Below are positions 9,576 to 21,149 of a stretch of 37,684 bases of DNA, in pieces. The DNA is from an uncultured Anaerolineales bacterium. Lineage in GTDB: Bacteria > Chloroflexota > Anaerolineae > Anaerolineales > Villigracilaceae. Below the pieces are notes generated by a model, which made no database searches, was not told the DNA's origin, and was given only the letters and a program-made list of their open reading frames with translations. The stretch covers positions 1-37,684 of the forward strand of contig CASGHD010000103.1 of the NCBI GenBank assembly GCA_949319575.1, written 5' to 3'. Each line of letters begins with the position of its first letter. Within the stretch, counting starts at the first letter, position 1. A program made the position numbers and the translations under genes.

Positions 9576-10220
9576 TCAGTCTGCGGTTGCGTCCAACGCC
9601 GCAGGCTCCGGCTGGTGCGGCGTTACGTTGAGCAGTTTGAACGCCCACTGCACCGATGGACCGATCAGGATCGCAAACACCAGCGTCCCCACCCCCAGCG
9701 GACCTCCCAACAGCCAGCCGATGGTGACGACAACGAGTTCCAAAATTCCCCTCGCCACGCGGACGCTCAACCCCGTGACGCGATGGATCGCCAGCATCAT
9801 GCTATCGCGCGGACCGGCGCCCGCATCCACTCCAATGTAGACGGCGGTTGCCAATCCCTGAATCAAAATTCCCGCGAGAAAGAACACAATTTGCAAAACG
9901 AGAGTACCTTTCGCGGAGGGAATTAACCACAGGCACAGATCCAGCCACGGACCGATGCTGAGGATATTTCCCAATGTGCCCCAACCCACTTTTTCGCGCA
10001 TTGCCAGCGCGAGGATCAGCACGGTAAACCCAACGAAGACGGTCATCCTGCCGATGGTGATTTTGAATATGTCTGCCAGCGCGATCTCGAATACCAGCCA
10101 TGTGCTTGTTCCCAGGTCGCCGCGGATCAGTAGCGCGAGCGCGAGCCCATAAAGAAAGAAGCCGAATTGAATGACAAGAAAGTCACGGGGGAAGGTCTTC
10201 CAGCGAATTGGTTTGAGCAT
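9576..10220 (-). CDS. YczE/YyaS-like (COG2364) integral membrane protein
   Basis: This 214-residue protein has five hydrophobic helices and the family's glycine-rich loops, notably IRGDLGTSTWLVFE near residue 33 and YIGVDAGAGPRDSMMLAI near residue 128 (the GxGPRD motif). The family is of unknown biochemical function. GGAG lies 4 nt ahead of the ATG. It is divergent from the GNAT gene, with a repeat-containing gap between them. Confidence 0.82.
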   Translation of the reverse strand: MLKPIRWKTFPRDFLVIQFGFFLYGLALALLIRGDLGTSTWLVFEIALADIFKITIGRMTVFVGFTVLILALAMREKVGWGTLGNILSIGPWLDLCLWLIPSAKGTLVLQIVFFLAGILIQGLATAVYIGVDAGAGPRDSMMLAIHRVTGLSVRVARGILELVVVTIGWLLGGPLGVGTLVFAILIGPSVQWAFKLLNVTPHQPEPAALDATAD

Positions 10221-10235
10221 GTGTCTCCTGTGTTT

Positions 10236-10348
10236 CGCGCTGAGCGGAGTGACGAGCGATAGCGAGGAACGAAGTCAAAACGCAGGCATTCAGGCAACAT
10301 GCCCTTCGACTGCGCCGCCAACGAACCGCGGCTCCGCTCAGGGCGGTG
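10236..10348. repeat. dispersed repeat in the divergent gap
   Basis: GCGCTGAGCGGAGTGACGAG with CGATAGCGAGGAACGAAGTC (10238-10278) resembles 582-646 in reverse orientation. CCCTTCGACTGCGCCGCC and GGCTCCGCTCAGGGCGG (10301-10347) resemble split halves of the CCCTTCGAC..CTCAGGGC repeat. Confidence 0.5.
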
Positions 10349-10373
10349 TGAATTGAGATATTATCACCCATGA

Positions 10374-10379
10374 TAAACT
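10374..10379 (+). promoter_or_regulatory. -10-like box 6 nt before the GNAT start
   Basis: TAAACT is followed by 6 nt (TGCGCC) and the ATG at 10386. No Shine-Dalgarno is present. The geometry equals that at 5624-5643, supporting a leaderless transcript. Confidence 0.5.
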
Positions 10380-10385
10380 TGCGCC

Positions 10386-10838
10386 ATGCACAAAATATTT
10401 GCGACGCATCGAGATCAATTCACTATCAGCGCCGATCCTTCCCGCCTCGATGTGGATACCATCTGCGATTTTTTCACGCGCTCCTATTGGGCGAAGGGAC
10501 GTCTACGCGAACGAACGGAACGCGCGCTGGCTAATTCACTGGTGTTCGGGGTATACGATGGAGAAAAACAAATCGGTCTCGCGCGCGTGGTCACCGATTA
10601 CGCGGTCTTCGCCTATCTTTGCGATGTTTTTATTCACGAAGACTATCGCGCGCACGGGCTCGGCAAGTGGTTGATAGAAACCGTTCATAGTCATCCCGAT
10701 CTGCAAGGTCTGCGCCGCTGGACTCTTGCCACGCGCGACGCGCACGGGTTATATAAACAATTCGGCTGGGACTCTTTGGGAAATTCTGAACATTGGATGG
10801 AAATTTTCCGCCCGTTCGCGGAAGAGGGAAGAGATTAA
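10386..10838 (+). CDS. GNAT-family N-acetyltransferase
   Basis: The 150-residue product is a compact GNAT enzyme. Motif A is VFIHEDYRAHGLGKWLIETV (about residues 79-98), with the R-x-x-G-x-G/A pattern that binds acetyl-CoA pyrophosphate. Motif B follows in WTLATRDAHGLYKQFGW, the usual 'LYKQFGW' ending of YitI/Eis-like small GNATs. The acyl acceptor cannot be predicted. It probably begins with a leaderless start (see 10374-10379). The FAD oxidoreductase follows 56 bp downstream on the same strand. Confidence 0.9.
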   Translation: MHKIFATHRDQFTISADPSRLDVDTICDFFTRSYWAKGRLRERTERALANSLVFGVYDGEKQIGLARVVTDYAVFAYLCDVFIHEDYRAHGLGKWLIETVHSHPDLQGLRRWTLATRDAHGLYKQFGWDSLGNSEHWMEIFRPFAEEGRD

Positions 10839-10894
10839 GTTGTCGCTTCGTCAGTATGGTGAGTTCGTTATCACTGACTGAAGGAAGGACAACC

Positions 10895-12073
10895 ATGAAA
10901 CACTACAAGTACTTGATCGTCGGCGGCGGGCTGGCAGGCGACGCGGCGACGCGCGGCATCCGCGAATTGGACGCGGACGGTTCCATCGGGCTTATCAGCG
11001 CGGAACCCGACGCGCCGTACATGCGACCGAATCTTTCGAAGGGGTTATGGAAGGGACGCCCTCTCGAAAAGATCTGGCGTAAGACCGAGGAACGCGCCGA
11101 ATTGTTGCTGGGTCGCGCGGTCACATCACTCGATACAACGAAGAAAACAGTGAAGGATAACAAGGGCGGCGAATATACCTACGATAAGTTGTTGGTCGCC
11201 ACCGGCGGCTCGCCAATCCGTTTGCCGTTCGGCTTGGTCGACATCACCTACTTCCGTGACCTGCAGGATTACCAGCGCCTGCGAAAAATGGCGGATGAAA
11301 AGAATCGCTTCGTCGTTATCGGCGGCGGGTTCATCGGTTCAGAGATCGCCGCCGCGCTCACGATGGCTGGCAAACAAGTGACGATGATCTTCCTCGAAGA
11401 CGCCATCGGCGGACGCGTCTTCCCCACCGACCTCGCGCGCCACCTGAACGATTATTATCGCGAAAAAGGCGTGGATGTGATCGCAAACGATTCAGTGACG
11501 AGCATTCAAATGGACGGGGATCACCTCACGGTCCAAACGGGAAGCGGTCGCGTCATCGACACGGACGGAATCGTCGCTGGAATCGGAATCCGCCCGAATG
11601 TCGCGCTGGCGCAGGAGGCGGGGTTGAACGTCGAGAACGGAATCGTCGTGAACGAAAGCCTGCAAACATCCGCTCCCGATGTGTTCGCGGCGGGCGACGC
11701 GGCTAACTTCTTTCACATTGCATTGGGAAAACGCGCGCGCGTGGAGCATGAAGACAATGCCGTCGCGATGGGCAAACTCGCGGGCAGGAATATGGCGGGC
11801 GCAAGCGAGACGTTCACTCACATCCCATTGTTTTATTCAGATTTATTTGACCTGGGGTACGAAGCCGTCGGTGAAATGAACAGTCAAATGGAAATTGTCC
11901 CCGACTGGGATGAGCCATTCAAAAAAGGCGTGATCTATTATCTCGCCGACGGGCGCGTGCGCGGGGTGTTGCTATGGAATGTGTGGAAAAAACTAGGCGA
12001 AGCCCGCGCCCTGCTGATGGAAAAAGGGCCGTTCAAAGCGGAGGAGTTGATGGGGAGAATTAAAGGCGAATGA
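10895..12073 (+). CDS. FAD-dependent NAD(P)H oxidoreductase, ferredoxin/rubredoxin reductase-AIF type
   Basis: The 392-residue protein has two Rossmann dinucleotide sites: YLIVGGGLAGDAATRGI for FAD at the N-terminus and VVIGGGFIGSEIAAALTMAG for NAD(P)H around residue 145. The FAD-closing motif is DVFAAGDAANFF near residue 270. The C-terminal dimerisation-like domain matches AIF/ferredoxin-reductase relatives. It likely passes electrons from NAD(P)H to a small redox partner, not encoded nearby. The ATG at 10895 is preceded by AAGGAAGGA, so I prefer it to the longer frame opening at 10793, which overlaps the GNAT gene. A perfect inverted repeat follows the stop. Confidence 0.9.
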   Translation: MKHYKYLIVGGGLAGDAATRGIRELDADGSIGLISAEPDAPYMRPNLSKGLWKGRPLEKIWRKTEERAELLLGRAVTSLDTTKKTVKDNKGGEYTYDKLLVATGGSPIRLPFGLVDITYFRDLQDYQRLRKMADEKNRFVVIGGGFIGSEIAAALTMAGKQVTMIFLEDAIGGRVFPTDLARHLNDYYREKGVDVIANDSVTSIQMDGDHLTVQTGSGRVIDTDGIVAGIGIRPNVALAQEAGLNVENGIVVNESLQTSAPDVFAAGDAANFFHIALGKRARVEHEDNAVAMGKLAGRNMAGASETFTHIPLFYSDLFDLGYEAVGEMNSQMEIVPDWDEPFKKGVIYYLADGRVRGVLLWNVWKKLGEARALLMEKGPFKAEELMGRIKGE

Positions 12074-12081
12074 CGATAGAG

Positions 12082-12120
12082 GATGGACGATTGACGATGG
12101 TCTATGGTCAATCGTCCATC
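12082..12120. terminator. 14-bp perfect inverted repeat between convergent genes
   Basis: GATGGACGATTGAC (12082-12095) and GTCAATCGTCCATC (12107-12120) form a perfect stem with an 11-nt loop. It lies 9 bp after the oxidoreductase stop and 7 bp before the end of the convergent hypothetical gene. It could stop transcription from both sides, although no U-run follows. The sequence is also built of heptamers (GACGATA, GAGGATG, GACGATT, GACGATG), like other repeats here. Confidence 0.6.
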
Positions 12121-12126
12121 GTTGTA

Positions 12127-12933
12127 CTATGCTAACTTCTGCGGATACCCAATCCCCGTCGCTTCATCATGCAGTTGAACCACCTCGGGCAGGGAATGAC
12201 TCGCGCCGACTTGCTCAACGAACTTGCATACGCTGAAGTTGCGGCTCAAGCGTTCATATTCCGATAACCAACTCTGAAACTCGCTCTCATTCCCCTCGCG
12301 CGGATATTTCACTTTGTAACCGCGAAGCCTCATGCGCGAAGGTTTCGGAGTCAATCGCGCTCGGTAACAGTTTTGCTTGACGCACAACATCGTATACAGC
12401 GGATCGCAGTTGAATTCGTCCATCATCATTTTGGTTTGCGAATCGCGCGGATCGAAGTCCCTGCCCAACACGATCACTCTCGCCCCTTGATACGTTTCGT
12501 ACATGCGGAAACCGTATTGGCTGTATTTTGCCGCCGCCAGATTTTTAACCATATCGAAAATTTCGGCTTTGCGCGAGCGTTTGTCTTTCATCTTTTTGAA
12601 TAGCCCGCCCAACCCGCCAGTCTCTTTAGGTTTGTCAATGTCGAGGATCATCGTCTTCTCGACGTTTAACACTTGCGCTCCATAGCGATTCCGCGTGATG
12701 ACCGCGTGATCGTCAATGCTTTGAAGTATTTCCTCACGAATCTCTACTTCGTAATCTTCGAAGAGTTGCTTCTCCCCTGCGATCTTGCGCTGGATCTTTT
12801 CCGCCTTTTCAAGCGCGGCTCTGCGTGCATCTTCCACAGAGACGTTCGATCCACCGTAGCAGGTGATTTCCCCTTTCCGCCCATCAATGAAGATGGTTTG
12901 TTTTTCGACGGTCCAGTGTTTGTAGATTTTCAT
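12127..12933 (-). CDS. conserved hypothetical protein (possible primase-like fold)
   Basis: I do not recognise a named family for this 268-residue protein, although it looks like a widely conserved soluble protein. An AAGGAG Shine-Dalgarno precedes the ATG. It begins MKIYKHWTVEKQTIFIDGRK, has a helical charged segment (residues 34-66), then MILDIDKP near residue 95 and FRMYETYQGARVIVLGRDF near residue 142. The spacing of an hhhDhD strand followed by a 'QGARVIV' strand recalls the catalytic core of archaeo-eukaryotic primases, but this is weak inference. The C-terminal half has Cys residues (FNCDPLYTMLCVKQNCYRARL) and many basic residues. It lies directly downstream of the retroelement template on the same strand. 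A shared transcript with the DGR is possible, but a functional link is not shown. Confidence 0.7.
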   Translation of the reverse strand: MKIYKHWTVEKQTIFIDGRKGEITCYGGSNVSVEDARRAALEKAEKIQRKIAGEKQLFEDYEVEIREEILQSIDDHAVITRNRYGAQVLNVEKTMILDIDKPKETGGLGGLFKKMKDKRSRKAEIFDMVKNLAAAKYSQYGFRMYETYQGARVIVLGRDFDPRDSQTKMMMDEFNCDPLYTMLCVKQNCYRARLTPKPSRMRLRGYKVKYPREGNESEFQSWLSEYERLSRNFSVCKFVEQVGASHSLPEVVQLHDEATGIGYPQKLA

Positions 12934-13114
12934 TTCGCGATTCTCCTTGGTATTCCAAGTATGTATTCGTTGCCCAACTCAGGGAGAACCCAGGAGTCAG
13001 GCAGATTGTATATTTGCCTGAGACAAGCCTCAAGCAGGGAGCAAGCCAGCCGATAGTTTTGCCTCGACCGCCGTTCATGAACGGACAGCGCTACTGGCGA
13101 AGGAAAGATATTGT
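12934..13114 (-). other. DGR template-RNA 3' spacer (non-coding)
   Basis: This 181-bp stretch follows the template repeat on the sense strand and precedes the hypothetical gene. No gene seen. It holds a perfect 14-bp palindrome CCGTTCATGAACGG (13071-13084). It also holds a 7-bp stem with one G-U pair, GCTTGAG / CTCAGGC, around a 6-nt loop (about 13017-13036). In studied DGRs the RNA flanking the template is structured and needed for cDNA priming, so this is the likely equivalent (inference). Confidence 0.5.
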
Positions 13115-13232
13115 GGAGAGAACGAGCCGAAAACCGACATTGTTGTTGAAGTTGTTCGGATTGTTCCTGTTACGAACAGCACAGCGGACATTGTTTCGAT
13201 TGTTGTTCCACGCGCCGCCGCGCAACACGCGC
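13115..13232 (-). repeat. DGR template repeat (TR)
   Basis: This 118-bp copy matches 14706-14823 (constant offset 1591) with 20 mismatches. Every mismatch is an A in the TR sense (minus) strand. The sense strand has 28 adenines, all within 13140-13207; the outer 25 bp on each side are adenine-free and identical to the VR. Read in the VR frame it encodes [15 protein letters not shown] and later [14 protein letters not shown], with 13 AAC or AAT codons. Any base at the two adenines of such a codon cannot create a stop. It begins 19 nt after the Avd stop codon. Confidence 0.97.
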
Positions 13233-13251
13233 TCTCTTGGCTTGTCCCTTT

Positions 13252-13590
13252 TTATTGACTTGATTTCTTCCAACCTCCAAGTAAACGCCCGATTTCAACC
13301 AGTAACTTTGAAGCGTGTTCGTATTGATTCAATTTCATAATGTCAAGATCTTTGCACAGTCGCAAATGCTGGCGCAAGAGGGCAAGTTGCACATCAGCCT
13401 CGTCCAGTAATCGAACGCGGTCTTTTTTGGACAGCCCTGCCTTTGTCAGTGTTTCTTGAAAATCAAGTATGTGGCGTATCACACGTTCGCCAATGCCAAA
13501 CCGATGAACGCGCGGAAATTTGTTAGCTTGTGGAATCAACCAAAGGACAAGATCGTACGTGCGTGAAAAAATGGGAGACTCTTGCATCAT
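13252..13590 (-). CDS. avd: Avd-like accessory protein of the retroelement (four-helix bundle)
   Basis: The 112-residue product resembles the DGR accessory variability determinant: [21 protein letters not shown] is followed by a basic segment [12 protein letters not shown], then helices [22 protein letters not shown] and [20 protein letters not shown]. In known systems Avd forms a basic pentamer that binds the reverse transcriptase and template RNA. I chose the ATG at 13590, whose first base overlaps the last base of the RT stop (TGATG), implying translational coupling; an ATG three bases later is also possible. The open frame extends 24 codons further upstream but inside the RT gene. The template repeat starts 19 nt after its stop. 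Confidence 0.9.
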
Positions 13591-14639
13591 CAAAGCATAT
13601 AACGACCCAGAACAGACCGCCGTAAGCCATAGGTATCTCCCCATGCGGCATGGGCAGACCACGAGCGGGCAGAGTCATCCAACTTCTTTCGTTCGATTCG
13701 AAGCCCAGCCCACTGTTGATATAAATATCGAAACCGCCGCTGAAAAGCGATACCGCGCTTCTTCTTCAATCGGCGATAACTGGGAAAGATACGGAAACCG
13801 AGAAAGGGAACGCCCGTCTCCACAGGGTATATCTGTGGTTCATGCAAGGTCATCTTTAATTTTTCGACACGGTTGAGAATTTTCTCCTTCCATGCATGTA
13901 AAATTTCCTTATCATTCCCAAACAACAAAAAGTCATCCACATAACGAAGGTAGCCATCTACGCGAAGTTCGCGTTTTACAAAGTGATCGAACGCGCTCAA
14001 ATAGACATTGCCCCAAAATTGCGAGGTGAGGTTCCCAATGGGTAAACCGCGCGGACGGGAGGCAGAAAACAAATCGTCCCCTGCAAACCATTTCATTTGA
14101 TAGGATTCGGTTTGCGCGCGAACGCCTGAGCGCAGGATCAAATCCACAATTTCCAGCACACTCGCATCATCCACATGCGCCGCGATCTTTTCCCGCAGAA
14201 TGGCATGGTCTATGCTCGGAAAGAACTGTTCCACGTCGCATTGCAGTACATATTTGTATTTTCGGGCAAACTGAGACGCGCGCAAGATGGCGCGATGCGT
14301 CCCCTTGTTTTTTCGATTGGCATAGGTGTCAAATGTGAAACGCCTCTCCCAATCGGGTTCGAGCAAGTTACACAAGGCGTGATGTACCACACGATCTCGA
14401 AAGGGCGCGGCGGAGATCAATCGTTTTTTCGGTTCATGAATGTAAAAGTTTGTGTAATCTCCGGGTTGCCACGTTTTAGAAACTAATTCGGTTTGCAATT
14501 GAATCAATTCCTCTTCCTGATTGTATTCAAAACCAGCCACGCTTGCCTTGCCGCGCTTGCCTTTGCGCGCTTTTCGGTAGGCTTCATACAAATTTGTAAA
14601 CGAACAGAACTTATCATACATCTCGCCCATATCAACCAT
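13590..14639 (-). CDS. DGR-type reverse transcriptase
   Basis: The 349-residue protein has the retron/DGR reverse transcriptase motifs in order: a basic N-terminus (FTNLYEAYRKARKGKRGK), FRDRVVHHALCNLLEP, catalytic Asp135 in VLQCDVEQFFPSIDH, GLPIGNLTSQFWGNVYL (about 198-214), the active site LRYVDDFLLF (Asp235 and Asp236) and VPFLGFRIFP. The [L/I]GN-x-TSQ motif is typical of DGR enzymes rather than group II intron ones. There is no maturase or HNH domain. It would copy the template RNA into cDNA with errors at adenines. It starts 49 bp after the target stop and overlaps the Avd start by one base. Internal ATGs at 14630 and 14621 are alternative starts. Confidence 0.95.
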   Translation of the reverse strand: MVDMGEMYDKFCSFTNLYEAYRKARKGKRGKASVAGFEYNQEEELIQLQTELVSKTWQPGDYTNFYIHEPKKRLISAAPFRDRVVHHALCNLLEPDWERRFTFDTYANRKNKGTHRAILRASQFARKYKYVLQCDVEQFFPSIDHAILREKIAAHVDDASVLEIVDLILRSGVRAQTESYQMKWFAGDDLFSASRPRGLPIGNLTSQFWGNVYLSAFDHFVKRELRVDGYLRYVDDFLLFGNDKEILHAWKEKILNRVEKLKMTLHEPQIYPVETGVPFLGFRIFPSYRRLKKKRGIAFQRRFRYLYQQWAGLRIERKKLDDSARSWSAHAAWGDTYGLRRSVLGRYML

Positions 14640-14667
14640 CCATTTTAAAAATTTGATTCAGAAATCA

Positions 14668-14681
14668 GAATCCAGAGATTC
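14668..14681. other. small inverted repeat just downstream of the VR
   Basis: GAATC (14668-14672) and GATTC (14677-14681) flank a 4-nt loop, beyond the target stop codon and 24 bp from the VR end. Some DGRs have a short hairpin or cruciform near the VR end that promotes homing. This one is short, and the surrounding CAGAA-unit DNA is repetitive, so the assignment is tentative. Confidence 0.3.
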
Positions 14682-14687
14682 AGAATT

Positions 14688-17465
14688 TCAAGAACTTCTA
14701 TCGGGGGAGAGAACGAGCCGAAAACCGACAACGTAGAGGAAGAAGCTCGGATCGTGCCTGCCACGAACAGCACAGCGGACATAGAACCGACTGTAGCCCC
14801 ACGCGCCGCCGCGCAACACGCGCATCGAACCAGACGCAGGACCAAGCGGGTCTTTAATTTGCCGATCTGCGCGCTGAGCGTACACTTCATCATCGTACCA
14901 GTCCGCGCACCATTCCCATACATTTCCAAGCATATCCAATGCGCCATAGTCGCTCGCGCCGTTGGGGTACATACCCACAGGCGACGTGCGATTCAATTTT
15001 TCAGGCGTTTTTTCATCCGCGTTGTTCGATAACGTTCCATCCCAAACATTGCCCCAAGACCAAATGGAATTTCGCGCGCCTCGCGCGGCTTTCTCCCATT
15101 GGGCTTCGGTAGGTAAATGATAATTTTTATTCGTTACTTGGCTTAACCAGTTGCAATAGGCTTCGGCTTCGAACCACGCGACGCCGACAACAGGCAAGTT
15201 GGGAGTGTTCCATTGCGGGTCTTCCCAAAAATACGGTTTGTCCCGCAATTCAACGGGCCTGCCTGCCAGCCAGTCCTTATAATCTTGGCGTACTTTTTCA
15301 TCTTCGATCCATGAAAGATCGGCATCAAACTTCCCTGTCCGCCACTGCCAGCCGTCGTCGCTCCAAAAATTTTTTTCCTCATACCCTTTGGCTTGATAAA
15401 ACGCGGCATATTCCATGTTCGTCACGGGATATTTACCAATGGAATATTCAGATAGATATACGGCATGCGACGGTTCTTCATGGCCCCATGAACTTGTTTC
15501 CTGCTCTTTCAGTATTTTCTTCTCTTCTTCGCTGGTTCCCATGCGGAACTCGCCTACAGGGATCGAGACGCAATCGGGCTCAAGCGGGTTGAGGCGCGGG
15601 TCGCCTAACGCGCCCAACGCCATCCCTAAATTGAATCTGGGACGCACATCGACACGCGGCGGACTAGAAATTAGCAATTCTGTCATTTGTGGCGCAATTT
15701 TTTTCACTATATCTTGGAATCTGAGTTTTTCAGAAATGTCTGCGAGCGCCAAACCTGCCACATACAATGCGCGTGATTTTCCTTCTTCACTTTTGCCCAA
15801 ACCAGAATCAGAAATTTGTAAAACAAAGCGGCTGGCTTTGTTTTCACCTTTAATAGCCAAATAACCAGCGGCTAAACGCAAGGCTTCATACCATCGGTCA
15901 TTTTCGATGTTTTCTCGTAAAAACGCCTCTAACTTTTCCTGCGGATACTCTTCGGCTACGTACCTGCCCGCCAAATATTCTTGGAAGGTGGCATGAGTAT
16001 AAAAACCATAATTATCATCTACCGATTCGAGCAATCCGCCCCGCCCAGCCACATCGCGTAAAAATGCTCTTGTCGTTCGCTTGGCTTCAACTTCTTCACT
16101 TCCGAAACGTTTCCAAATAAATTCCACCAAATCATCTTCAAGCAGGGCATCCTCTTTCTTGTCGAGCAATTCAAAAGCAATCCAGGCAAGTCTATCCCGC
16201 CGCACGGTCCAGTCCATACCGCCTGTTTTTTCCAGTTCCTTGGCTTCTTCATCGCCTTTGTAGCGTTCAGTTAATAAGACCTCAACCGCATCCTCATATA
16301 ATTTAGCGCGCTTTTTGGGCAATTCATCTCGGCTGTAATGCACCATGGCAAAGATCGTTACCATTAAAGGCGTGGTTGCTAATTTTTTCACAGGCTCTTC
16401 ACTGTCATCAATTCGTGATGACAGGTCTTTGGTTTTTCGGCGGGCTTCATGTAAATCATCCGCAAGCGCGGCTTTGTACCACAATTCAATCAACTCGTTG
16501 CGTTGCGCTTTTGTTAAACTTTGCACCTCCACATTTTGGAAACCGCGCATCTGTTGGGCAATTTGAATCGCCGAAGGGCGTGAAGTTAATAAGCAATATA
16601 AATTGGGACCATCAAATTCCGCCAGAAATTCTTCTACCGCTGAACGAATAGCGGGGCGGTCTTCACGGTCCACTTCATCTAAACCATCCAATAACAACAA
16701 ACAGCCTTTTCCTAGATGCGTTTTTATGAAATCAACGTCTACATCTACTGAAGCATGATGGTCTGCAAGATATTCAGCCATGAAATTCAAAAGGGTTTTG
16801 GATGAACGACTGCATTTATTTTTTTCACAAAACGAAGCGTAGGCCCTTAATGGGAGAAAAAACGGCACGAGCGGTTTCCCGCCTAATGATTTTATTAATT
16901 CTTTTTGTTCGTCAGATAATTTTTGTTTTAGCAACGCTTTAGCGCAAGCCAACCCCGCCCATTGCAATAATGTGCTTTTGCCTGAACCCGCGACGCCAAT
17001 GACCGCCAACCTCCGCGATTCTTTTGCCGCTTCACTTAATTGGATGGACTCATTTTGAGAGCCCAATCTTGGTCTTCCGCGAATAAATTCTTGCGCTTGC
17101 GCCTTTTCTGTTATATCTTCGGTTAAGTTGTCTTTTGCGCTTTTTTCAGATAAAACACGCACCGAAATATAGGCTTGGTCTAATTGCGCCGGTTCAATTC
17201 CCTTCGCGCGCGTTGGGGGTAATCCGCGAAACTTAAAATAACTATAGGCTTTGCTGGCTTGCTCAAGATAGGCGCGGGTGGCGTCATTGATGTCAACGCG
17301 TTTTAGAATCCGTTCAGCATCGTCCTGTCCCCACTGTTCGAATAATTTTGCGATCCCGCCGCCATACGCGCGCAGTAAAAATACAGCGGCAATGGCAATC
17401 CCCAATGGAATCGCATACCATTGATATAGAATGAGAAAATCTACAAGGGCTTGCAAGTCAGTCAT
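14688..17465 (-). CDS. DGR target: membrane-anchored NACHT NTPase with C-terminal SUMF1/FGE-like variable domain
   Basis: The 925-residue protein has, in order: one transmembrane helix (about 9-33); a linker; a NACHT/STAND NTPase with Walker A GVAGSGKST (157-165), Walker B LLLLDGLDEVD (256-266) and LLTSRP (292-297); a helical region with HATFQEYLAGRYVAE; and a formylglycine-generating-enzyme/SUMF1-like C-type-lectin-fold domain from about residue 635 (IPVGEFRMGT, YPVTNMEYAAF, LPTEAQWEKAARG, MLGNVWEWCADWY). The last part, residues about 882-920, is encoded by the VR. The FGE-like fold is the usual scaffold for DGR-diversified ligand binding; enzymatic sulfatase activation is not implied. Likely role: an ATP-dependent signalling switch triggered by a rapidly changeable sensor (inference). 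A GAGGG ribosome site precedes the ATG. Confidence 0.95.
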   Translation of the reverse strand: MTDLQALVDFLILYQWYAIPLGIAIAAVFLLRAYGGGIAKLFEQWGQDDAERILKRVDINDATRAYLEQASKAYSYFKFRGLPPTRAKGIEPAQLDQAYISVRVLSEKSAKDNLTEDITEKAQAQEFIRGRPRLGSQNESIQLSEAAKESRRLAVIGVAGSGKSTLLQWAGLACAKALLKQKLSDEQKELIKSLGGKPLVPFFLPLRAYASFCEKNKCSRSSKTLLNFMAEYLADHHASVDVDVDFIKTHLGKGCLLLLDGLDEVDREDRPAIRSAVEEFLAEFDGPNLYCLLTSRPSAIQIAQQMRGFQNVEVQSLTKAQRNELIELWYKAALADDLHEARRKTKDLSSRIDDSEEPVKKLATTPLMVTIFAMVHYSRDELPKKRAKLYEDAVEVLLTERYKGDEEAKELEKTGGMDWTVRRDRLAWIAFELLDKKEDALLEDDLVEFIWKRFGSEEVEAKRTTRAFLRDVAGRGGLLESVDDNYGFYTHATFQEYLAGRYVAEEYPQEKLEAFLRENIENDRWYEALRLAAGYLAIKGENKASRFVLQISDSGLGKSEEGKSRALYVAGLALADISEKLRFQDIVKKIAPQMTELLISSPPRVDVRPRFNLGMALGALGDPRLNPLEPDCVSIPVGEFRMGTSEEEKKILKEQETSSWGHEEPSHAVYLSEYSIGKYPVTNMEYAAFYQAKGYEEKNFWSDDGWQWRTGKFDADLSWIEDEKVRQDYKDWLAGRPVELRDKPYFWEDPQWNTPNLPVVGVAWFEAEAYCNWLSQVTNKNYHLPTEAQWEKAARGARNSIWSWGNVWDGTLSNNADEKTPEKLNRTSPVGMYPNGASDYGALDMLGNVWEWCADWYDDEVYAQRADRQIKDPLGPASGSMRVLRGGAWGYSRFYVRCAVRGRHDPSFFLYVVGFRLVLSPDRSS
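14706..14823 (-). repeat. DGR variable repeat (VR)
   Basis: This is the C-terminal coding repeat of the target. The TR asparagines are here replaced: NNN by GYS, NN by FY, N by G, NN by HD, NN by SF, NNN by LYV, while Trp, Arg, VRCAVR, Pro, Phe and VGFRLVLS are kept. A 20th change is silent, in an Arg codon. The VR ends 15 bp before the stop codon. The adenine-free 25 bp at 14706-14730 is the likely initiation-of-mutagenic-homing segment. Confidence 0.97.
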
Positions 17466-17699
17466 ACGGCTACCCTCTCTTCATTATTATTTCACAAAGT
17501 ATTAACTCGCCTTACGCAAGGTCATTAATGGTCGAGAGATTTTCTTTCTGTGGTGGACTTACCGTCCACGAATGCGCGCGAATAAACGAATTGACCGTTG
17601 TTATTCGTAAATTCGTGGTTTTATTCGTGGACGGTTTTCACCGCTCAGGCAAAACTGCGTAACATCATTTATTAATAGCCTCTCGACATTCAAAAAACT
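17466..17699. other. gap upstream of the DGR target with inverted repeats
   Basis: No gene seen. CCGTCCACGAAT (17562-17573) and ATTCGTGGACGG (17623-17634) are a perfect 12-bp inverted pair, and inner segments (CGAATAAACGAATT against AATTCGTGGTTTTATTCG) extend it to an imperfect 73-bp hairpin. A further pair, GTCGAGAG (17531-17538) and CTCTCGAC (17680-17687), lies outside. The target promoter must lie near 17480-17510 (AT-rich) but I cannot fix it. Confidence 0.6.
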
Positions 17700-17894
17700 T
17701 TACTTCTCATCCCCCAAAGACGAGATCGCCCGCAAGAGACCAAACACCAACATGCCGAGTTTCAATCCCTCGCCGGCGGTGAGGGCGGATTCGCTTTCGT
17801 TCTTCTCCGCGCGGCGGTTGAGCAGTAGCGCGGCGATGAGTCCCGCAAATGCGCCGATGAGGGCGCCGGTGAATAAGGTTTTGCTTTTGTTCAT
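17700..17894 (-). CDS. small membrane protein, hypothetical
   Basis: The 64-residue product has two hydrophobic stretches (LFTGALIGAFAGLIAALLL, and GLKLGMLVFGLLRAI), resembling short YtxH-like or glycine-zipper envelope proteins, but no family is certain. A clear GGAGGA Shine-Dalgarno precedes the ATG. A 31-bp palindrome separates it from the next small membrane protein on the same strand. Confidence 0.65.
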   Translation of the reverse strand: MNKSKTLFTGALIGAFAGLIAALLLNRRAEKNESESALTAGEGLKLGMLVFGLLRAISSLGDEK

Positions 17895-17909
17895 ATATTA
17901 TTCCTCCAA

Positions 17910-17940
17910 GATCTCACAGGTCTCGTAGACCTGTGAGATC
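17910..17940. repeat. 31-bp perfect palindrome
   Basis: GATCTCACAGGTCT (17910-17923) and AGACCTGTGAGATC (17927-17940) flank a CGT centre. It shares the CTCACAGGT/ACCTGTGAG core with the palindrome at 18565-18597, and its size with that at 35016-35048. It may act as a transcript terminator as well as being a dispersed repeat. Confidence 0.75.
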
Positions 17941-17948
17941 TCAATATT

Positions 17949-18368
17949 CTATTTCCTTCCAAAAAACGCTTTGACGCTCGCGCCGATGCCATCGAGGAAC
18001 AGCACGGGCTTGACCGCCATCTCTGTGCCGCGTTTGATGTACACCGCCGCCTTATTGACGTATTCCTGCGCGATGCCGGTGTACTTCGGCGTAATGCCGA
18101 GCAATTGTTTCATCAAGTAGACCAATGCGGTGAGTATGGCGAGCAACACAAGACCGACAACTATGATCGGAACAACGATCCAGATCGTGGAGATCGCCGC
18201 CCAGCGACCTGCGTCGCCGCCTTGGTTGAACGTGGCGATATTGATCAGCGCGATCAACGCGACGAAGAGAATCGCGGTCAACGCGACGGGGAGAATGATC
18301 TGCCACATCGTTTCCCTGCGATGACGTTTATATGATTCGTGAACGGGCTGTGGGATATTGGCTTTCAT
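17949..18368 (-). CDS. two-TM membrane protein, hypothetical
   Basis: The 139-residue protein has two strong transmembrane helices (about residues 22-45 and 60-88, IWIVVPIIVVGLVLLAILTALVYL) and a C-terminal soluble part with AQEYVNKAAVYIKRGTEMAVKPVLFLDGIGASVKAFF. I do not recognise the function. It and the 64-residue protein may be a pair. There is no Shine-Dalgarno; TAAAAT (18381-18376 on the minus strand, with an extended TG) lies 7 nt before the ATG, suggesting a leaderless start. Confidence 0.72.
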   Translation of the reverse strand: MKANIPQPVHESYKRHRRETMWQIILPVALTAILFVALIALINIATFNQGGDAGRWAAISTIWIVVPIIVVGLVLLAILTALVYLMKQLLGITPKYTGIAQEYVNKAAVYIKRGTEMAVKPVLFLDGIGASVKAFFGRK

Positions 18369-18400
18369 TGAGCGTATTTTAGCATATCACGATTTTTTTT

Positions 18401-18467
18401 ACCGCTAAGAGCGCAAAGGGCGCGAAGATTTAAAGCTTTTCTTTGCGGTCTTCGCGTCCTTGGCGGT
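18401..18467. repeat. inverted triplet of nonamer repeats
   Basis: Three direct nonamers, ACCGCTAAG, AGCGCAAAG, GGCGCGAAG (18401-18427), face three inverted ones, CTTTGCGGT, CTTCGCGTC, CTTGGCGGT (18441-18467), around a 13-nt centre. The same unit occurs in frame in the rRNA methyltransferase gene at 37285-37311. Confidence 0.75.
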
Positions 18468-18564
18468 GAAAGAACTTAAACGCGCAGAGCGATTCAGACA
18501 TGCTCGCCCAGGCACGCCAGAACCGCTCCGGCAAAGGAGGTGGACTTGACCGAATTTTTCATCG

Positions 18565-18597
18565 AGACCTCACGGGTTTTAAAAACCTGTGAGGTCT
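18565..18597. terminator. 33-bp palindrome after ftsZ (terminator/dispersed repeat)
   Basis: AGACCTCACGGGTTTT (18565-18580) pairs with AAAACCTGTGAGGTCT (18582-18597) with a single G-T mismatch. It starts 14 bp after the ftsZ stop, the last gene of the dcw cluster, so it may end that transcript. It is also related to the 17910-17940 palindrome. Confidence 0.6.
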
Positions 18598-18610
18598 GAA
18601 TTTTATTTAT

Positions 18611-19771
18611 TTATCTTCGATTCCGCAAAAAGGTTGGGATGTCGAGATCGTCCTTATTCACAGGGGGCAGAGGGGCAGGTTTTGCCTCACCCGGCTGAAC
18701 GTCGGCATGAACCGAGACCGATTCGAGCGGGCGTGAGAATACATCTGCCGTCGTCCGCTTGTTTTCGCGCGTATTCTTTTCCAGCGCGCGACGCGGCATG
18801 GCGCTGCGTTCGAAACCGGTCGCGATCACGGTGATGCGGATGTCGTCGCCCAGGTTCGGGTCGATAACCGCGCCGAAGATCATGTTGACATCGGGGTGAG
18901 CCGTTTCGCGGATGATTGCCGCGGCTTGGTTGACCTCGAAGAGCGTCATGTTCGGTCCGCCGGTAACATTGAATAGCACGCCGCGCGCGCCGTCAATGGT
19001 GATGTCGAGCAGTTTGGAGGAGATGGCATCTTCGGCGGCTTTCTTCGCGCGTTCATCGCCGGTCCCGATTCCGACCGCCATGAGGGCGGCTCCGCCTTCG
19101 GACATGATCGCGCGCACGTCGGCGAAATCTAGGTTGATGAGGCCGGGGATGGTGATCAATTCCGAAATGCCTTGAATGCCTTGATGCAACACGTCGTCCG
19201 CGAGGCGGAACGCGTCTTGCAGTGAGGCGCGTTTATCGGCGATCTGCAACAAGCGGTCGTTGGGAATCGCGATCAATGTATCGGCGTGTTCCTTGAATTT
19301 GCCGATGCCCGCTTCAGCCGACGACGTGCGCCGCCCGCCTTCAAAGGTGAACGGGCGCGTCACAACGCCGATGGTGAGCGCGCCGCTTTCTTTTGCAATT
19401 TGCGCCACGACCGGCGCGGCGCCAGTGCCGGTGCCGCCGCCCATGCCCGCGGTAACGAAGACCATATCCGCGCCTTGCATGACCTTGTATAGTTCGTCAG
19501 CGGATTCTTCCGCGGCTTTGCGCCCCACTTCGGGGTCGCCGCCCGCGCCGAGACCGCGCGTCAACTTATCGCCGAGTCTCACTTGCGTGGGCGCTTTCGC
19601 GTGTTTCAACGCTTGCGCGTCGGTATTCGCGATGATGAATTCAACGCCTTGAATACCTTCATCGATCATGCGATTGACGGCGTTCGATCCACCGCCTCCC
19701 ACACCGATCACTTTGATACGGGCGAACGGTTCTGTTTGTTGCTGGTTGTCTTGCTTATTGGTCGAGTCCAT
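18611..19771 (-). CDS. ftsZ: cell division GTPase FtsZ
   Basis: The 386-residue protein is a complete FtsZ, the tubulin-like GTPase that forms the division ring. The N-terminal loop [16 protein letters not shown] (21-36) and the tubulin signature [15 protein letters not shown] (109-123) bind GTP, and the T7 loop [11 protein letters not shown] carries the catalytic Asp. A variable linker leads to the C-terminal peptide [12 protein letters not shown], which contacts FtsA. GGAGG lies 6 nt before the ATG. It is the last gene of the dcw cluster, 145 bp after ftsA, followed by a palindrome. Confidence 0.98.
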
Positions 19772-19916
19772 GTTGAGCCTCCATCAAACATTGGTTGAAT
19801 GATACTTGCTTTTGATTCCGCGGCGATAAATTTTAAGGGGAATAATTTATCTGCCACAGAGACTCAGAGTCGTAGAGATTACTTTTTCTCTTCTTCTCCG
19901 CATCGTAGCGGCAAGT

Positions 19917-21149
19917 CTACGGCAAAATCCTTCCGACAATTTTCTTGATGTACCCAAAACCCATGCGCGCTTCTCCTTTCCTGCGACGGTCTCTTCCAAT
20001 GCCTGTATCTTCATCCTGCATCGAAAGCGCCCACTGCAACAAACCCACACCGGTGGAATACGCCGGTGATCTCAACCGATCTACAAGCCCGGAGAGATTC
20101 TCCGGTTGCGCCGCGCGGACCGGCATACCCAACACCTCGCTTGCCACGCGACTGATGCCCGGCAAGGCAGACGTGCCGCCGGTCAACACCATGCCCGCGG
20201 GCAGAAGACCGTCATAGCCGGAGCGTTTGATTTCTTGCAGGATCAACCCGAAGGTCTCCGACACGCGCGCTTCGATGATCTCTGCCAGTTCCTGCCGGTT
20301 GATCTGCACAGGCTTGTCCTCTCCAAACGGGCGCACGGAAAAATATTCCTCGATCCCAACTTCGCCACGCGCCGCATGACCCTGTTGCTTCTTCACCTCT
20401 TCGGCTTGCGCGAACGGCAACCGCAGACCATGCGCAATATCCTGCGTGATGTGATTGCCGCCAACCGCAAGCACCATCGTATGCCATACATCGCCGTTGA
20501 CGTAGATCGCCAGATCCGCCGTGCCGCCGCCGATATCGCACACCGCCACACCCATCTGGCGTTCCTGCTCGGTGAGCACGGCTTCGCCGGAGGCAAGCGG
20601 GTTCAACACGAACTCTTGAATCTTCACGCCGCTGGCGCTCACACAATGACGCAGGTTGTCCACTGTGGCGGCGGAGGCGGTGATGATGTGAGCCTCTACT
20701 TCGAGGCGATAGCCGTGCATCCCACGCGGCGAGCGGATGCCATCCTGCCCGTCCACGCTGAACCCGCGCTGGATCACGTGGATGATCTCGCGGTCGTTCG
20801 GGATCGCCACCGCCCGCGCCTGTTCCATAGCATGATTCAGATCATATTGCTCGATCACCTTCCCGTTGACGGCTGATGCTCCACGGCTGTTCACCGACGC
20901 CACGTGCGCGCCGGCAATGCTCACCAGCGCCGAGGTGATCTCTAGCCCCGAAGTGGATTCCGCTTTTTTCACCGAACGAGCAATGGCTTGCGTCGCGGCG
21001 GCGAGATCAACGATGATGCCCTTGCGGATTCCATCCGAAGGCTCGATGCCCACACCCATGATGCGGATGGGATTATCCTCCTCCACGCGTCCCACGAGCG
21101 CGCAAATTTTTGTCGTGCCTACGTCGATGCCTACTACGATTTCTTCCAT
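19917..21149 (-). CDS. ftsA: cell division protein FtsA
   Basis: The 410-residue actin-like ATPase tethers FtsZ to the membrane. Visible are the phosphate-1 loop GIDVGTTKICALVG (8-21), the SHS2/1C domain (about 80-170), VAVCDIGGGTADLAIYVNGD (phosphate 2) and the adenosine motif MVLTGGTSALPGI. The C-terminal amphipathic helix MGFGYIKKIVGRILP would insert in the membrane. An AAGGA ribosome site precedes the ATG. It lies between ftsQ (95 bp gap with heptamer units such as TAGACAG and GTAAACA) and ftsZ. Confidence 0.97.
   Translation of the reverse strand: MEEIVVGIDVGTTKICALVGRVEEDNPIRIMGVGIEPSDGIRKGIIVDLAAATQAIARSVKKAESTSGLEITSALVSIAGAHVASVNSRGASAVNGKVIEQYDLNHAMEQARAVAIPNDREIIHVIQRGFSVDGQDGIRSPRGMHGYRLEVEAHIITASAATVDNLRHCVSASGVKIQEFVLNPLASGEAVLTEQERQMGVAVCDIGGGTADLAIYVNGDVWHTMVLAVGGNHITQDIAHGLRLPFAQAEEVKKQQGHAARGEVGIEEYFSVRPFGEDKPVQINRQELAEIIEARVSETFGLILQEIKRSGYDGLLPAGMVLTGGTSALPGISRVASEVLGMPVRAAQPENLSGLVDRLRSPAYSTGVGLLQWALSMQDEDTGIGRDRRRKGEARMGFGYIKKIVGRILP

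Follow-up and report, generated by a model that had tools for sequence, protein, structure and literature searches.

Do bacteria run an anticipatory, mutating immunity of the NOD-like receptor (NLR) type? This question is raised by a 4.5 kb cassette in an uncultured Anaerolineales bacterium, in contig CASGHD010000103.1 of assembly GCA_949319575.1, a single draft metagenome-assembled genome (3.65 Mb, 227 contigs, 91% complete). The 37,684-nucleotide stretch of that contig analyzed here is referred to as the window. An earlier reading of the sequence (the original prediction) described a complete diversity-generating retroelement (DGR), with a reverse transcriptase (RT), an Avd-like gene, a template repeat (TR) and a variable repeat (VR), whose target is a membrane-anchored NACHT NTPase ending in a domain like formylglycine-generating enzyme (FGE). 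Profile, repeat and motif searches confirmed each of these parts, and we regard it as virtually certain that the element is a DGR and diversifies its target. The best explanation of the locus as a whole is probably that the DGR is intact and varies the sensor end of an NLR-like switch anchored in the membrane.

All four parts lie on the minus strand, where the original prediction had put them, in the order target, RT, Avd and TR (Table 1). The bounds first proposed for the unit, 12934-17465, were close to those of a unit shared with genome G120, and the start of Avd had to be corrected: its frame is open over 13252-13662, and comparison with G120 places the likely ATG two bases past the RT stop. 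The RT motifs IGNLTSQ and YVDD were unchanged across 11 RTs of the window's genus. The best match of the RT in the PDB was entry 8ub7 (4.8e-49, versus 2.3e-14 for group II RTs), which contains Avd besides an RT; with a match to PHROG 1423 at 9.1e-110, the profile search placed the RT inside the DGR group. Avd scored above the cut-off of its NCBIfam family NF033474 (98.1 versus 80 bits), also matched Pfam bAvd and, in the PDB, resembled Bbp7 (4dwl, 2.6e-6) and the Avd of 8ub7 (1.1e-5). We take the proteins of 8ub7 and 4dwl to be components of the DGR of Bordetella phage BPP-1. In a midpoint-rooted 38-row tree with three long phage branches, the window's RT fell with Chloroflexota and other cellular RTs, adjoining those of Nostocales, and apart from five phage RTs and an Ideonella RT (97/92); any assignment to clade 5 or 5D of Roux 2021 and Dore 2024 would be tentative. 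In PADLOC 2023, 81 families matched the RT, all of the 25 listed being other RT or Cas1-RT types, and no family was found for the target or Avd. An Rfam scan of 10000-20000 gave no match at the gathering score.

Table 1. Positions in the window of the DGR cassette and its parts.
Feature	Position	Strand	Basis
DGR target, 925 amino acids (aa): N-terminal hydrophobic helix, NACHT/NLR core and FGE-type C-type-lectin (CLec) fold	14688..17465	-	open reading frame (ORF), Pfam, AlphaFold
Predicted transmembrane helix, residues 10-28	17382..17438	-	hydropathy
NACHT domain, residues 151-331, Walker A GVAGSGKST	16473..17015	-	Pfam
NLR-like core, residues 56-621	15603..17300	-	
FGE/SUMF1-like domain, residues 629-918	14712..15581	-	
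VR (codons 882-920), final part of the FGE domain	14706..14823	-	repeat search
DGR RT, 349 aa; IGNLTSQ at aa 201-207, YVDD at aa 233-236	13590..14639	-	
Avd, likely start ATG at 13587	13252..13587	-	NCBIfam NF033474, Pfam bAvd, G120 comparison
TR, 28 adenines, 14 mutable codons	13115..13232	-	
Insertion of 4766 nt separating two host genes	12934..17699	-	congener comparison
Cassette common to the window and G120 (another genus), 75.8% nucleotide identity	12970..17466	-	

A repeat search blind to base identity recovered the predicted TR and VR as a 118-nt direct repeat of 83% identity. All 20 differences between the two fall at TR adenines, with none at the other 90 positions (hypergeometric P 1.5e-16); nine are A>G, nine A>T and two A>C. 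The mutable residues comprise 13 AAC/AAT codons and one AGG, from none of which a stop codon can be reached, and they allow ~10^15.8 possible proteins. In the predicted structure the VR sits at the C-terminus of the CLec-fold target. We extended the comparison to the best 80 of at least 581 RT relatives in named genomes; by title, 65 of these 80 are from Chloroflexota, many of them Anaerolineae. Our own pair finder accepted 57 pairs in 49 of these loci (12 pairs were dropped, and 31 loci had no accepted pair), with 842 of 867 mismatches at A, a figure that is biased because the finder favors adenine mismatches. In a base-blind control (47 pairs, 57 targets) the mismatch rates were 0.449 for A, 0.058 for C, 0.071 for G and 0.098 for T. 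Strain-level VR variation was sought in viral_contigs, with no match.

Concerted change of TR and VR between genomes indicates that, over evolutionary time, sequence has been transferred from the one to the other. An RT search at 1e-140 across 152 genomes of the family returned only the window's own genome, G120 and G148 (76% identity), and a class-wide search of 396 genomes at 1e-145 found nothing beyond its own genome. Both G120 and G148, the latter being the CFX3 genome of locus L045 (same FtsZ place), lie in another genus than the window. G120 holds the whole cassette, with 18 of 18 TR/VR differences at adenines; L045 begins inside the target, retaining its last 137 residues, and has 17 of 18 differences at adenines. 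At non-adenine template bases that differ between the three genomes, each VR tracks its own TR (13/13, 16/16 and 15/15), and at template bases that agree the VRs follow (75/75, 70/71 and 72/73). VR turnover at adenine sites, as the original prediction implied, is supported between species.

The target joins a NACHT domain to an FGE domain with a C-terminal VR, as predicted (Pfam NACHT 8.7e-12, FGE-sulfatase 3.1e-55). Its AlphaFold model had a pLDDT of 81.5 and a pTM of 0.79, and fold matches of the model suggest that the core takes a NACHT-type NLR fold. Both active-site cysteines of FGE are missing, the positions aligned with those that we presume to be catalytic in the T. curvata enzyme being Y891, a mutable codon, and V896; the domain is judged to be enzymatically dead. 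Among 33 aligned targets, which had been picked for NACHT, FGE-sulfatase was found in 33 and NACHT in 32.

Identity between the window and G120 targets varied along the protein: 21/36 in the helix region, 68/103 in the linker, 175/196 in NACHT (residues 140-335), 256/287 in HD, 181/259 in the FGE domain before the VR, 3/14 at the mutable codons and 22/25 at the other VR codons. The switch is under purifying selection, because four-fold sites are far diverged (79 of 168 identical in the core, 56 of 163 in FtsZ). By raw counts, four-fold identity in the RT (32/84) and Avd (12/34) was near that of FtsZ, and that of the whole target (134/288) was nominally higher. Recent horizontal transfer, prompted by a core identity of 89% versus 79% for FtsZ, is not supported, because both show far-reaching divergence at these silent sites; an old transfer, or old inheritance with relocation, may account for the distribution.

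The N-terminal helix is a probable transmembrane segment, based on the mean hydropathy of residues 10-28 (1.82) and a low-confidence AlphaFold helix spanning residues 2-33, and the G120 target has a similar one. The flank preceding it contains no lysine or arginine (K/R), and the flank following it contains both. To place this in context, we scored 36 complete NACHT targets (three of genome G000, one of G005 and 32 from the 80 named loci). Two N-terminal hydrophobic segments were present in 11, and a single segment of at least 1.8 in four, including the window and the doubtful L027, which has charged residues within the segment; five others scored 1.63-1.75 and 16 had no segment above 1.6. Such segments recur among these targets, which weakens the novelty that the original prediction saw in the anchored architecture, as does the periplasmic placement that Dore et al. 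predict for one NACHT target. In nine of the 11 two-segment targets the loop is poorer in K/R than either flank; the exceptions are L101 and L025, and in L025 the first segment is perhaps a signal peptide. The arrangement of charges, together with the ATP requirement of NACHT, makes it likely that the switch and FGE sensor reside in the cytoplasm.

We hypothesize that RT and Avd would copy the RNA of the TR, making errors at its adenines, and that the cDNA would then replace the VR; these copying steps are modeled on BPP-1 and appear here as a sequence pattern. The VR would supply 14 mutable residues on the predicted face of a dead FGE/CLec fold, and the sensor would face the cytoplasm, with a single N-terminal helix fixing the protein to the inner membrane. 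Ligand binding may free the NACHT core for ATP binding and oligomerization, as in NLRC4/NAIP. In the least certain step, the N-terminal helices and linkers may cluster at the membrane, causing damage, dormancy or death of the infected cell. Such clustering is probably the output because no partner effector was seen accompanying the cassette within the flanks examined; in 59 stretches, the target and RT families occurred in 59, the Avd-like family in 30, and the next commonest families in seven and six. We think it probable that the system serves in defense against phages or other intracellular invaders. That the membrane helix itself acts as the effector is possible but doubtful. More speculatively, and with a low probability, the cassette, which occurs at differing places on the chromosome, could be a movable adaptive immune module of one protein; it would combine a mutating cytoplasmic sensor, an NLR switch and an effector helix in 4.5 kb and need no partner, with several independent DGRs in a genome forming a small repertoire.

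The cassette is not something without precedent, as its membership of a recently described class is well supported; what we add to that class is further information on its anchor, its insertion and the way TR and VR evolve in concert. In the account of Dore et al. 2024 (PMC10907252), clade 5D DGRs have targets of the NACHT, nSTAND1 and KAP types, with N-terminal extensions in which no known domain is recognized; one genome may hold several such DGRs, and the hosts include filamentous chloroflexi. The original prediction had suspected that the class might be known, and this clade bears it out. Its sensor of evolvable specificity is supported in kind, as these authors already propose antigen sensing for NACHT/KAP-CLec targets, with kin recognition as an alternative. 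DGR 3 of Thiohalocapsa PB-PSB1, in clade 5D, likewise has a NACHT core, a C-terminal CLec VR and several DGRs in the genome (PMC10907252). The window's cassette differs from that clade in having one target, where a pair is common, a single N-terminal helix, no neighboring peptidase found within it, and the form of a discrete insertion with empty sites. The BPP-1 DGR shares the RT, Avd, TR, adenine mutagenesis and CLec-type VR, but its target is a tail fiber and not a cellular switch; the RTs of the window and of the related phage BIP-1 share 33% identity. TvpA (2y3c), the variable protein of a T. denticola DGR, is an outer-membrane lipoprotein according to Dore et al. 2024, whereas the variable domain here is fused to an NLR core. 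Inflammasome proteins NLRC4/NAIP and antiphage bacterial NACHTs also place a NACHT-type core ahead of a C-terminal sensor, but here that sensor is an FGE domain diversified by a DGR, and the N-terminus is a membrane helix instead of a CARD or nuclease. DGR-diversified FGE domains also occur in predicted conflict systems, the VMAP/MoxR ternary systems with DGR-linked FGS (PMC7159879), unlike which the window's target has no vWA domain in a Pfam scan. Among titles on DGRs of Chloroflexi/Anaerolineae and on STAND/FGE targets, as far as these were accessible, none concerned this locus, which is not to claim its absence from print.

Other explanations were weighed against this one. The anchor could put NACHT and FGE outside the cytoplasm to bind surface ligands, as Roux 2021 infer for most membrane-anchored cellular DGR targets (PMC8144416) and as the periplasmic placement of one NACHT-CLec target by Dore et al. 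(PMC10907252) would suggest. We consider this very doubtful, since positive residues follow the helix and none precede it, the loop in nine of 11 two-helix relatives is poorer in K/R than its flanks, and a NACHT ATPase outside would be without ATP. The predicted cytoplasmic position of the FGE end likewise weakens surface kin recognition, in which the diversified sensor would separate sibling cells from foreign ones within filaments or granules, similar to fungal NLR incompatibility. Such incompatibility involves cytoplasmic fusion, and these bacteria are not known to undergo fusion of the fungal kind. This idea, which the original prediction had raised and Dore 2024 offer as their alternative, accords with the predominance among the best RT loci of Chloroflexota, some of whose members are filamentous (Dore), and is in our judgment quite improbable.

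A tunable regulator, which would sense a metabolite or surface cue and adjust physiology without cell death, also seems unlikely. STAND proteins do have regulatory roles too. Cyanobacterial DGRs have been linked to regulatory pathways (PMC7517822), but the target's core is of the NLR type, and its Pfam scan gave neither a DNA-binding nor a kinase domain. Shifted VRs in some relatives could point to a relic, a DGR that no longer works and has left the VR frozen; this is extremely improbable given the intact ORFs and motifs, the lack of non-adenine differences, the concerted TR/VR change and the purifying selection.

Several points weigh against our preferred reading of a diversified, membrane-anchored cytoplasmic sensor used in defense. 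The antiphage protein bNACHT25 senses phage indirectly and not by binding a phage protein (PMC12169576), and Dore et al. place the NACHT and CLec domains of DGR 3 in the cytoplasm for the first target and in the periplasm for the second (PMC10907252), the latter placement conflicting with our topology argument for the class. The helix has a modest score and low model confidence. The Pfam scan revealed no canonical effector domain in the target, and effectors may lie beyond the flanks. PADLOC 2023 matched the target to no family at E 0.01, and the target scored 25 bits against the NCBIfam antiphage NACHT EruA, for which the cut-off is 1000.

Comparison with congeners indicates that the cassette is a discrete insertion with empty sites. 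It is flanked by a downstream gene (12127-12933) and a small upstream gene (17700-17894) beside ftsZ, and these are 7 nt apart in G004 and 6 nt in G012, versus 4766 nt in the window. The DGR was missing from the site in all five congeners compared: G004, G012, G009 (706 nt of other cargo, including a PIN-domain gene), G013 (about 940 nt of other cargo, two ORFs of which had no Pfam match) and G016 (about 291 nt, with no match to the small gene). G015, which also carries the downstream gene, was left out. Elsewhere, the neighbor of the cassette is a topoisomerase I gene in G120 and a valyl-tRNA synthetase gene in L045. The ftsZ-side gap resembles an insertion hot spot, holding the DGR in the window, PIN cargo in G009, other cargo in G013 and nothing in G004 and G012; the G013 site also has a 67-nt copy of the 3' end of the small gene. 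Upstream of the target, 17466-17705 appears by eye to hold a palindromic element, and parts of this 240-nt query recur at 19 places in the genome, counting its own. The 268-aa product of 12127-12933 is present in seven of 18 genomes of the genus, its own included, and matched nothing in Pfam, NCBIfam or PADLOC at the thresholds applied.

Four DGRs were found in the source genome, on contigs C103 (the window), C1, C175 and C35. The C1 target is a KAP-NTPase-FGE protein and that of C175 a NACHT-FGE protein, and the C35 TR has its partner in a NACHT-FGE gene that lies at the end of contig C59 (17 of 18 differences at adenines). The four are not recent copies of each other, because an 87-row RT tree needs four separate label changes. 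RT matches at 1e-30 were present in seven of the 18 genus genomes, its own included. A further KAP-NTPase-FGE gene (L028 10234-12531, G000 contig C151) lies near a contig end and matched none of the four TRs tested; it may be the target of an unassembled DGR.

Additional variations were observed among related DGRs. In L041, L043 and L044 the order is target, Avd, TR, then RT. In L057, L060, L075, L089 and L106 a single TR has two or three VR partners, each in an ORF of its own; a clear hydrophobic segment is seen in one NACHT target of both L057 and L089, the second target there having only a weak one. VRs are shifted against their own TR inside the repeat in L038/L061 (UTCFX1) and L039/L054, and these shifts may be real or an assembly mix of alleles; in L061 the end of the target is out of frame. 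In L038/L061 the open frame continues past that target end into the RT, and the resulting target-RT fusion of 1429 aa was rejected, since the match of the VR to its TR falls into two pieces that differ in offset. No FGE match was found in the frame that is open upstream of the RT in L063 and L102. On a plasmid of Ideonella dechloratans (L141), two RT and two avd genes lie close by one another, a few kb from an annotated phage tail protein gene.

Almost no cellular DGR target has a tested function. The comparison of the window with G120 parts a conserved switch (89%) from a faster sensor scaffold (70%) and from mutable codons of which few are held in common, a gradient that is a prediction of the evolving-receptor model. 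Overall, a compact and intact cassette, with empty sites and a 79%-identical relative that bears another sensor tip, would make a good system in which to ask whether bacteria run a mutating immunity of the NLR type.

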